Shown here: piece after piece, positions 35,489-55,422 of the stretch
Layout of the letters: the number at the start of each line of letters is the position of its first letter
How positions within the stretch are numbered: the stretch's first letter is position 1
Origin: a gamma proteobacterium symbiont of Taylorina sp.
GTDB lineage: Bacteria > Pseudomonadota > Gammaproteobacteria > GRL18
Direction of reading: 5' to 3'
Length of the DNA: 64,000 bases
Assembly (NCBI GenBank): GCA_025655455.1
Contig: JAHXIV010000056.1
Coordinates: 1-64,000 of the forward strand
Position numbers and translations under genes: made by a program
Notes under the pieces: model-generated
What the model was told of the DNA's origin: nothing
The model's input: the letters and a program-made list of their open reading frames with translations, nothing else
Database searches by the model: none

Positions 35489-36253
35489 TTATTTTACTTT
35501 ATTAATTTTGCGCAGCAGATATCCAAACGGGCCGGACAGTGTATAGAGGGCAAACATAGCGAATAAAATAAAGGAAGGTTGGTAAACAATGGTGGTGAAG
35601 ATTAACACCATAATTAAAATACTGACAAAGGGCACTTTATTTTTTAAATCTAAATCTTTAAAGCTGCGGTATTTAACATTGCTGACCATTAATATTCCAC
35701 TGCCTATCGTTAACAAAAAAGATAAATAGCTCATTTGTATACCACTATAATTGTTTTCCGTGCATAGCCATACAAAACCGACCACAAAACCGGCAGCAAT
35801 AGGACTGGCCAGTCCCTGAAAATAGCGTTTATCAGCGTGTCCCACTTGTGTATTAAAACGGGCAAGACGTAATGCAGCACTGACCACATAAATAAAACAA
35901 GCAACCCAGCCGACTTTTCCCAGTGATGACAGAGACCAGGTATACATCACCAGAGCAGGAGCAACACCAAAGGAAACCATGTCAGAAAGACTGTCATATT
36001 CAACACCAAAATCACTTTCTGTATGGGTCATACGCGCAACGCGGCCATCAAGACCATCAAGGATCATGGCAATAAAAATTGCCATGGCTGCCGCTTCAAA
36101 TTGGCCGTTCATAGCAGAAATTACCGCAAAAAAACCACCAAACAAGGCACCTGTTGTAAACAAATTAGGTAATAAGTATATACCTCGATTTCTTTTCTTA
36201 GGAATTTCGTGTTCAGATGCTTCCTGTTCAATCAAATTTTTTTCATTAGCCAT
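35489..36253 (-). CDS. pssA: CDP-diacylglycerol-serine O-phosphatidyltransferase
   Basis: This integral membrane enzyme makes phosphatidylserine from CDP-diacylglycerol and serine. The 254-residue protein has the CDP-alcohol phosphatidyltransferase motif DGRVARMTHTESDFGVEYDSLSD (all conserved Asp, Gly and Arg in place) and about seven hydrophobic helices. It is the Bacillus/Helicobacter-type membrane PssA, not the soluble E. coli type. Its place between ilvC and leuA is a known conserved arrangement. A palindromic element lies in the gap to ilvC. Confidence 0.93.
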   Translation of the reverse strand: MANEKNLIEQEASEHEIPKKRNRGIYLLPNLFTTGALFGGFFAVISAMNGQFEAAAMAIFIAMILDGLDGRVARMTHTESDFGVEYDSLSDMVSFGVAPALVMYTWSLSSLGKVGWVACFIYVVSAALRLARFNTQVGHADKRYFQGLASPIAAGFVVGFVWLCTENNYSGIQMSYLSFLLTIGSGILMVSNVKYRSFKDLDLKNKVPFVSILIMVLIFTTIVYQPSFILFAMFALYTLSGPFGYLLRKINKVK

Positions 36254-36292
36254 AACTTTTTTGACAGCTCTTATATTGTATACAATTTAAAA

Positions 36293-36362
36293 GGGGTTGG
36301 AGTCAAATGGAAAGATTACGGAATTAAAAAAATCTGTAGTCATTCCATTTGACTCCGCCCCC
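36293..36362. repeat. Palindromic element, copy A (between ilvC and pssA)
   Basis: A 70-bp sequence with ends GGGGTTGGAGTCAAATGG and CCATTTGACTCCGCCCCC, which pair as a long inverted repeat around an AT-rich centre of about 34 bases. The same ends occur at 37466, 52622 and 54479. It sits in the operon gap about 40 bases upstream of pssA. Confidence 0.9.
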
Positions 36363-52620: not shown

Positions 52621-52700
52621 AGGGGGCGGAGCCAAATGGTATTAAATATTATAACTTATATTAACATCAGGCAGTACATAACATTTGACTCCGACCCCCT
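52621..52700. repeat. Palindromic element, copy C (between btuB and btuC)
   Basis: Ends GGGGGCGGAGCCAAATGGTA and ACATTTGACTCCGACCCCC flank about 44 AT-rich bases. It fills most of the 120-base btuB-btuC gap and ends 13 bases before the btuC start. Same family as copies A, B and D. Confidence 0.9.
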
Positions 52701-52712
52701 ACCCATTATCTT

Positions 52713-53687
52713 ATGTTAATAAACAACAAATTTTTATTTTTGACCTGTCTTATTCTGCTTGTACTCATCAGCTTTGTCTTTTCATTGCTGACGGGTTCAA
52801 GCAAGCTCTCATCAAATGATATTATTTCACTTTTTAATGGTACTGCTTCTCCGCTGCTGCAAACTTTGATTTTTGAACTGCGTTTGCCCCGTGCTCTGGC
52901 TGCTTTTGCTGCAGGTGCACTCTTATCTCTGGCAGGTGTCCTGATGCAGGTATTATTGAGAAATCCACTGGCTGACCCATACGTGCTTGGGGTTTCAGGT
53001 GGTTCGGCTCTGGCTGCTTTACTGGCTATGTTGATGGGTGTAAACAGCTTACTTATGACAGGCAGTGCATTTATCGGCGCATTGATTTCCATTCTACTGG
53101 TGTTTGTATTTTCGCATCAATCCGGCAGCTGGACAGTGTCAAGATTGTTGTTAACCGGGATTATATTAGCTTCCGGCTGGGGAGCCATGATCAGTTTTAT
53201 ACTGGTGATAGCCCCTGCAGAACAGGTTCATGGTATGTTATTCTGGCTGATGGGCGATCTAAGTTATGACAGACCTCTACTACCTGCTTATCTTATATTA
53301 TTGTGCGGTCTGATATTTTCTATGCTTATCAGTCGTCAATTAAATATTATGCTCTGGGGTGATCTTCAGGCAGGCAGTCTGGGTATTCAAATCAAAAACC
53401 TCAGATTAAAAATCTTTTTCTTATCTTCCTTAATGACGGCAGGTGCCATTACCTTAGCTGGAAGTATTGGTTTTGTCGGTCTGGTTATCCCACATCTGGT
53501 AAGACTGGTATTGGGCACTGATCATCGTTACCTATTGCCGGCCAGTGCATTAACCGGGGGAGCATTATTAATCATTGCAGATACACTGGCCAGAACAATA
53601 CTATCACCACAGCAATTGCCTGTTGGAATTTTAACTGCCTTAATCGGCGTTCCATTATTTCTATATCTTCTGAAAAAGAGTACATAA
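52713..53687 (+). CDS. btuC: Vitamin B12 ABC transporter permease
   Basis: This 324-residue FecCD-type permease has about ten hydrophobic helices. Family blocks are LRLPRALAAFAAGALLSLAG, NPLADPYVLGVSGGSALAA and GSIGFVGLVIPHLVRLVLGTDHR near residue 250, the ATPase-contact region. The btuD start overlaps its last base, so translation is coupled. FecCD permeases also move siderophores; the riboswitch and cob genes support B12. Confidence 0.93.
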   Translation: MLINNKFLFLTCLILLVLISFVFSLLTGSSKLSSNDIISLFNGTASPLLQTLIFELRLPRALAAFAAGALLSLAGVLMQVLLRNPLADPYVLGVSGGSALAALLAMLMGVNSLLMTGSAFIGALISILLVFVFSHQSGSWTVSRLLLTGIILASGWGAMISFILVIAPAEQVHGMLFWLMGDLSYDRPLLPAYLILLCGLIFSMLISRQLNIMLWGDLQAGSLGIQIKNLRLKIFFLSSLMTAGAITLAGSIGFVGLVIPHLVRLVLGTDHRYLLPASALTGGALLIIADTLARTILSPQQLPVGILTALIGVPLFLYLLKKST

Positions 53688-54496
53688 TGTCCCTGCAATG
53701 CCGACATCTCAGGCTTTCAATTGCCGATAAAGTTATCTGTAAAGATTTAAAGATCAGCTTTAATCCCGGAGAATTCTGGGGCATTATGGGCATTAACGGG
53801 GTTGGAAAAACCACCTTATTAAAAAGTTTAATTGGTCTTCATGAAGTTGATACAGAAAATGATAAAAATATGTGTATTCAACTCAATAATCAAAGTATTT
53901 ATTCCTACAAGCGTCTTGAACTGGCACAGAAAACAGGTATTATGCTGCAGGAATATGAGTATAACTTCCCCTCAACTGTACTGGAAGCAACCCTGATTGG
54001 TCGACATCCCTTTCTTAATCAATGGCAGATTGAAGATACTCATGATGAACAACTGGCACTGCAGGCTTTAAAAAGAGCAGGACTGGAGAAATTATCTCAG
54101 CGCGCCTTAAGTACACTTTCAGGCGGAGAAAAACGCCGTGTCAATCTGGCCACCCTGCTGACACAGAATCCAGATTATTATTTACTGGATGAGCCGGTCA
54201 ATCATCTGGATCTTAAAGCACAAATGGATATATTAACACTACTGAGCAATCAATTTAAAAACTCCGGTCAATGCGGCATTATGGTGATTCATGATCCTAA
54301 TCTTGCCTGGCGTTTTTGTGATCACATCTTATTGTTATTTAATAAAGGTGAGTGGTTAGCTGGTGACACCCAACAAATTCTGACAAAAGATAATCTCAGT
54401 CGTCTTTATGACTGTAAAATTCAGCAAGCAGGCAATGGAAAAAATGACACTTTTTTTAGTCCGGTGCTTGAGTCAGAAGGGATCGGAGTCAAATGA
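53687..54496 (+). CDS. btuD: Vitamin B12 ABC transporter ATP-binding protein
   Basis: The 269-residue ATPase has Walker A GINGVGKTTLL, Q-loop MLQEYEYNFPS, signature LSGGEKRRVNLA, Walker B DYYLLDEPVNHLD and the switch His in MVIHDPN. The last codons (IGVK and the TGA stop) come from palindromic element D, which begins at 54479. The TGA overlaps the ATG of btuF. Confidence 0.93.
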   Translation: MSLQCRHLRLSIADKVICKDLKISFNPGEFWGIMGINGVGKTTLLKSLIGLHEVDTENDKNMCIQLNNQSIYSYKRLELAQKTGIMLQEYEYNFPSTVLEATLIGRHPFLNQWQIEDTHDEQLALQALKRAGLEKLSQRALSTLSGGEKRRVNLATLLTQNPDYYLLDEPVNHLDLKAQMDILTLLSNQFKNSGQCGIMVIHDPNLAWRFCDHILLLFNKGEWLAGDTQQILTKDNLSRLYDCKIQQAGNGKNDTFFSPVLESEGIGVK

Positions 54497-54551
54497 CATG
54501 CACATCCGAACTTATAATAAAGAAAGTATTTTATCATTTGACTCCCCCCCC
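54479..54551. repeat. Palindromic element, copy D (btuD/btuF junction, coding)
   Basis: Ends GGGATCGGAGTCAAATGACA and TCATTTGACTCCCCCCCC flank an AT-rich centre. Unlike the other copies it lies inside coding sequence: the left arm contains the btuD stop and the btuF start (AAATGA), and the remainder encodes the first 20 residues of BtuF. Confidence 0.9.
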
Positions 54552-55422
54552 TGGTGCAGTATATTTGTTTTTCCTGATAATGAGCAGTTATTCTTATGCG
54601 CAAATAGAGGTTATTGATGATACCGGTCAATTAGTGTCACTGGAAAAACCTGCTCAAATAGTGATCAGTTTGTCTCCCGGATTGACTGAGCTTATCTACG
54701 CCGCAGGCGGCTCTGATAAAATAAAAGCAGCTGTAAGCTATAGCGATTTTCCTGAACAGGCAAAACAATTACCACGTATAGGCAATTATGACGCCTTGGA
54801 TATAGAACAAATATTACAAATAAAGCCGGATCTTATTATTGCCTGGAAAAGTGGTAATCCAGTCAATCAAATTGCTCAGCTGCAAAAGTTTGGACTAAAT
54901 ATTTATATCAGTGAACCTTTACATTTCAATGACATACCAGAGACAATTAAAAAGCTTGGTAAGTTAATGGGAAGTGATACTATTGCACAAAAAAATACTG
55001 ATGAATTTATCAGACAATTAAATGCTTTAAAAAAACAATATACACCACTGAACTTAAATAAGAAGAAAACGACTTTTATTCAAATCTGGAATAATCCGCT
55101 GATGAGTATTAACGATAAACATTTAATTTCAAAAGTAATCAGTTTTTGCGGGGGGCATAATATTTTTTCTCAGGCCGCAAGCTTAACCTATTCACCGGAT
55201 ATTGAATCGGTCTTAAAATCTAACCCTGAAATTATTATTGCAACCGGTATGGCTAAGCAGTCTGGATTATGGCTGAAGCGCTGGCAGCAATGGCCCTATT
55301 TATCGGCGGTTAAAAATAAACGACTTTATAGTGTCAACCCGGATCATTTAGTCAGACATACGCCAAGAATTCTATCCGGTATTAAGGAAGTGTGTGAATT
55401 AATTCAACCTGCAGGGAAATAA
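54493..55422 (+). CDS. btuF: Periplasmic vitamin B12-binding protein
   Basis: BtuF delivers cobalamin to BtuCD. The 309-residue protein has a class III binding-protein fold with IVISLSPGLTELIYAAGGSDKI, RIGNYDALDIEQILQIKPDLII and FIQIWNNPLMSI. The N-terminus MTCTSELIIKKVFYHLTPPP is encoded by palindromic element D. It is followed by a short hydrophobic core (VYLFFLIMSS) and a likely cleavage site at YAQ, so the export signal is a chimera of element and native sequence. No other start codon upstream of the hydrophobic core is available. Confidence 0.9.
   Translation: MTCTSELIIKKVFYHLTPPPGAVYLFFLIMSSYSYAQIEVIDDTGQLVSLEKPAQIVISLSPGLTELIYAAGGSDKIKAAVSYSDFPEQAKQLPRIGNYDALDIEQILQIKPDLIIAWKSGNPVNQIAQLQKFGLNIYISEPLHFNDIPETIKKLGKLMGSDTIAQKNTDEFIRQLNALKKQYTPLNLNKKKTTFIQIWNNPLMSINDKHLISKVISFCGGHNIFSQAASLTYSPDIESVLKSNPEIIIATGMAKQSGLWLKRWQQWPYLSAVKNKRLYSVNPDHLVRHTPRILSGIKEVCELIQPAGK

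Follow-up and report, generated by a model that had tools for sequence, protein, structure and literature searches.

How does a gene fare when a mobile repeat comes to lie on the junction with its upstream neighbour? This question is raised by btuD and btuF in the 64,000-nucleotide stretch of DNA analysed here (the window), where a mobile palindrome between two vitamin B12 uptake genes supplies the end of BtuD and the start of BtuF (Table 1).

The junction and its repeat family

BtuD ends in GGA GTC AAA TGA and BtuF begins at the overlapping ATG, as read from the sequence and its open reading frames, so the initial annotation, which had located this stop and start in the left arm of a repeat, described the sequence correctly. 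It had drawn the repeat from 54479 to 54560; the left end stands, but the element is 73 bp long and stops at 54551, and of the first 20 BtuF residues that had been assigned to it, residues 1-19 and only two bases of codon 20 are in fact encoded by the element. Further features have emerged beyond that description, namely the last residues of BtuD (GIGVK) being encoded by the element as well, a C8 run and a frameshifted older start upstream. BtuF is a full-length intact ORF of 309 aa with no internal stop and the sole BtuF match in the genome, with a Peripla_BP_2 domain (PF01497, E 6.6e-23) and btuB/btuC/btuD-like neighbours. Its top NCBIfam match is BtuF, under the curated cut-off, and the identities of BtuC, BtuD and BtuF are backed by domain searches and context, with no NCBIfam curated cut-off reached for these names.

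The arm of the element belongs to a family whose 17-mer GGGGTCGGAGTCAAATG was found, at up to 3 mismatches, as 186 half-sites in the 4.5-Mb genome, compared to 1 for a reversed-pattern control. The family has the consensus GGGGTC GGAGTCAAATG ... CATTTGACTCC GACCCC, and a sample of 60 distinct inverted doublets from fetched stretches of the genome had a modal length of 72-75 bp. The hairpin of the element at the btuF junction folds better than 200 of 200 shuffles (z = -4.1). Together, the half-sites, the doublets and this hairpin show that the repeat is not due to chance. In some copies both arms are altered together (GGAGCCAAATG/CATTTGGCTCC), as expected for a conserved hairpin, and the btuF-junction copy itself has diverged from the family consensus. 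Four family copies are carried by the window, two of them within the btu cluster. The family is present in seven related genomes (G002, G005, G006, G011, G013, G014, and G018) and absent from most others, and a search of the plasmid collection with the btuD-btuF junction gave no match.

Table 1. Features of the btuD-btuF junction and of other loci carrying the repeat family. For lpxB, rnhB, mpl, ubiX and folC the names are putative, as read off the gene sequences.
Feature	Position	Strand	Remarks
btuD (ABC ATPase)	53687..54496	+	last residues GIGVK and TGA stop element-derived
btuF (B12-binding protein, Peripla_BP_2)	54493..55422	+	first ~20 residues MTCTSELIIKKVFYHLTPPP element-derived
73-bp palindromic mobile repeat (dimeric inverted-repeat element)	54479..54551	.	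60-doublet family, genome count, 13 relatives' junctions without element
Stem 5' strand GGAGTCAAATGA, 12-bp perfect stem	54485..54496	+	includes GGAG Shine-Dalgarno-like motif, btuF ATG, btuD TGA
Stem 3' strand TCATTTGACTCC	54534..54545	+	
Native segment of BtuF signal peptide, GAVYLFFLIMSSYSYA preceding QIEV	54552..54600	+	positional alignment with relatives' cores LFLILASSSPLQA, LLILVLLSSTNCHA
Likely ancestral btuF ATG	54444..54446	+	joined-flank reading MEKMTLFLVRCLSQNGAVYLFFLIM; homologous ATG in G006; now out of BtuF frame
C8 run, right end of element	54544..54551	+	C-count sets BtuF frame
Second family copy, between btuB and btuC, same gene cluster	52622..52698	.	
101-bp element with lpxB stop and rnhB start	L139:1506-1606	minus	
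Element copy holding ubiX start	L024:1746-1819		
In-frame element inside ubiX	L024:1448-1520	minus	~24 extra residues (GAESNGIGCELNNYHDPAAFDSDP), absent in relatives
folC element	L016:1407-1520		no own start codon before conserved region; sole nearby ATG/GTG/TTG is right-arm TTG
Element in N-terminus of ABC-transporter ATPase	L128:3324-3396	minus	right after MILQQ

The probable displaced start and the reading frame

Thirteen relatives have a readable adjacent btuD-btuF junction and the element is absent from all of them, with BtuD tails and BtuF n-regions unlike those in the window and with the two genes overlapping by tens of bases at one extreme and separated by tens of bases at the other. 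Agreement of the BtuF N-terminus with such element-free relatives had been set beforehand as the observation to speak against an insertion, and it is common to none of the 13. The proposal that an inserted repeat remade the junction, placing a new start and n-region before the native core, is thus borne out. On the other hand, the claim that the 4-base overlap and the reading frame had been kept has to be given up: ATGA occurs in 0 of the 13 relatives and was rejected as the ancestral arrangement, indicating that the overlap was created by the insertion, and 73 bp would have broken the frame from the likely old start.

This older start can be traced in the genome that we took as the nearest by rnhB and ubiX identity (G006), where BtuD ends in NDTFFSPQLSL* and the junction carries no element although 56 half-sites at no more than 1 mismatch are found elsewhere. 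When the element is removed, the joined flanks align with G006 and the BtuF frame is open from ATG 54435 or 54444 (MEKMTLFLVRCLSQNGAVYLFFLIMSSYSYAQ), with a homologous ATG in the same frame in G006 (MIPFLALNYHFNYWQIFLLILVLLSSTNCHAQ). By this alignment ATG 54444 (or 54435) is likely the older BtuF start, still there but now out of frame, since 73 is 3n+1. The element's own ATG at 54493 is open and in the BtuF frame; the insertion thus appears to have broken the frame from the likely ancestral start while supplying the ATG that rescued it. Such a rescue in the right frame is no freak event, as the arm ATG is open through to the end in 17 of the 64 orientations of 32 full-length copies. The joined flanks provide no early stop for BtuD, which means that the flanks have changed since or that the element boundary is inexact, and because the closest sequenced relative is only ~67% identical in BtuF (a partial match), the exact pre-insertion sequence was not seen.

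Predicted initiation and export of BtuF

Both the GGAG, only 4 bases from the ATG, and the btuF ATG itself are paired within the stem, with an unpaired probability of ~0.001 compared to a median of 0.46, the lowest of the 37 ORF starts in the window. The second least accessible start belongs to a gene beginning at 36253 (minus strand), which adjoins another element copy (36253-36362). Overlapping ATGA stop/start pairs are coupled via termination-reinitiation in tested gene pairs (PMC6728339). With its start and GGAG buried in the least accessible position of the 37, BtuF should come from ribosomes finishing BtuD, and as the terminating ribosome covers the 5' arm, reinitiation at the overlapping ATG would be the natural route.

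We therefore propose that a 73-bp copy of a dispersed palindrome of the REP/TIR type (RAYT-associated) entered the 3' end of btuD, across a short overlap of this gene with btuF, and that translation of btuF now initiates at 54493. In free mRNA the btuF start would be locked in the 12-bp stem, until a ribosome reaching the end of btuD occupies the 5' arm and opens it; after termination at the TGA this ribosome would reinitiate on the overlapping ATG, presumably aided by the GGAG, and BtuF would then be made only when BtuD is made. Export would proceed through a hybrid signal peptide, in which an element-coded n-region with KK precedes the native core. This chimeric signal has 36 residues before the Q, an n-region net charge of +1 and a core hydrophobicity of 2.70, all within or near the range of the relatives, and its hydrophobic core and cleavage region, judging by sequence, are native. 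Taken as a whole, the insertion account with a btuF start at 54493, coupled translation and hybrid-signal export has in our estimate a probability of about 0.7.

An alternative btuF start is TTG 54538 in the right arm (MTPPPGAVYLFFLIM...), in which case the contribution of the element would shrink to a weak start and a few residues at the end of the n-region. The region around this TTG is less occluded (0.33 vs 0.001), and the right-arm TTG is the sole ATG, GTG or TTG start open to ubiX and folC inside or downstream of their elements, but TTG 54538 has no clear Shine-Dalgarno sequence and would yield an n-region without positive charge, whereas ATG 54493 has both the GGAG and the canonical ATGA overlap, so that we find initiation in the right arm unlikely. 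The frame itself hangs on the C8 run, the sole G/C run of at least 7 in the window: C7 or C10 would join BtuF to 54435, 54444 or 54498, and with C6 or C9 BtuF would be without a start. The run could be misassembled, and if its true length is 7, or if it varies from cell to cell, BtuF would be read from the native ATG 54435 or 54444 with the element adding 24 in-frame residues to the signal peptide, in the manner of Rickettsia palindromic elements. A run of C7 or C10 would indeed keep the frame open from 54408 through the element into BtuF, and in-frame through-insertions by the family are known in ubiX and an ABC ATPase; however, the assembly shows C8, and an n-region made long by the insert and bearing several acidic residues would make a poorer signal, which renders a native start with a shorter run quite improbable. 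As the btuF start is buried in a hairpin and the native start displaced, it might also be thought that the insertion wrecked expression or export and that btuF is an early pseudogene. This we regard as very improbable, given that the remaining protein is intact, 309 aa without a stop and 60-67% identical to congeners, and that the divergence of this element copy from the consensus suggests that time has elapsed without decay of btuF.

Other genes and related repeat systems

Initiation from ATG 54493 would not be the only case of a start taken over by the family. The other cases rest on ORF logic over a sample of copies, and an in-element start was counted only where no native start remained; many apparent ORF starts in elements (14-base overlap) were discarded, the right-arm TTG merely extending ORFs with a downstream native start. 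Between lpxB and rnhB, the LpxB stop is inside the element, and so are all the starts open to RnhB; in 14 congeners RnhB has a native start. This element is possibly one of a longer, ~100-bp subclass (also at L127 and L137), and some of the native rnhB start region may lie within it. In the mpl/ubiX case the right-arm TTGA supplies the stop as well as the start, and an AGGAGG precedes the TTG by seven bases. The family took over the starts of rnhB and ubiX, and probably that of folC. It is possible, though we advance it only tentatively, that copies of the family function as portable modules for gene junctions, with a left arm GGAG-TCAA-ATG(A) and a right arm TTGA, each offering an overlapping start and stop within a hairpin, and that they have repeatedly rewritten gene ends (btuD/btuF, lpxB/rnhB, mpl/ubiX, folC) and put the downstream gene under coupled translation. 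The C8 of btuF might in that case also be a slip-prone frame switch, with initiation in the element, initiation at the old native ATG and an off state as its settings.

Among known systems, the family resembles the TIR repeats of tyrosine-transposase genes (TIRtrons/TIRYT), with the published end motif GGGGWSAS (PMC3733652), in having short inverted repeats that are often dimeric and a GGGG-rich end, and perhaps in its link to RAYT-like genes, which adjoin copies. The motif fits exactly in a second repeat type of the genome (GGGGTCAG), whereas the family consensus GGGGTCGG is one base off, and variants with GGGGTCAG occur among the 60 doublets. Unlike in TIRYT, the RAYT-like protein beside a family copy is without HUH histidines and, apparently, the tyrosine region. 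The gene for this protein (L150:3215-4057, minus strand; orthologues L162-L174) is kept at full length in nearly all congeners; the HUH histidines of the protein are lost (DSFQLF for DNHYHI), apparently together with the catalytic-tyrosine region, and its sequence suggests a transposase that was domesticated and is no longer catalytic. In this genome only, a diverged element copy is located ~105 bp from the gene; none is found beside its orthologues. Since the catalytic residues are missing and the orthologues have no adjacent copy, we do not claim the gene as the mobiliser of the family. A second RAYT (L151:3205-4020) is HUH-intact and flanked by a related repeat, GGGGTCAGAGTAAAAT, that fits the published GGGGWSAS. 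Flank matches in 32 full-length copies were at the shuffled level, giving no target-site duplication, as for mobile repeats of the IS200/RAYT type.

With REPINs (PMC3116915) the family has in common inverted doublets of a conserved 16-17-mer, a variable spacer, a hairpin formed by two inverted short repeats, compensated changes and a mostly intergenic location. In the arms GGGGTCGGAGTCAAATG, however, no internal palindrome is evident and the GTAG tag is absent, whereas each REP has an imperfect palindromic core, often with such a tag. A dimeric repeat of the TIR/REP type, without the palindromic arms of REPINs proper, is the most fitting description of the element. Rickettsia palindromic elements, in-frame palindromic repeats that add residues to unrelated proteins (reviewed in PMC10969869), likewise enter coding sequence, and in-frame insertion within a coding gene is also seen in ubiX; in contrast, they are in-frame inserts of ~150 bp, while the family has a modal length of 72-75 bp, which sets it apart by length, and takes over stop and start at the btuF junction.

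Repeats of this class are usually regarded as extragenic. The termini of GTAG/CGTC REPs often give flanking ORFs a TAG stop and some lie within ORFs or at N-termini, the N-terminal cases being mostly judged non-coding or annotation errors (PMC3733652). btuF differs in that its older start is out of frame, which makes a start from the element necessary, and in that a stop has been captured jointly with a start. Because this older start can be located and lies in another frame, initiation within the element is almost a necessity if BtuF is made with a signal peptide. Repeats writing stops or protein segments are already known; new is the joint capture of a stop, a start and the front of a signal peptide with a traceable displaced native start. 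In conclusion, coupled translation at btuD/btuF is a testable prediction, and btuF offers a clean test case for the capacity of selfish palindromes to give rise to functional gene starts, signal peptides and translational coupling.
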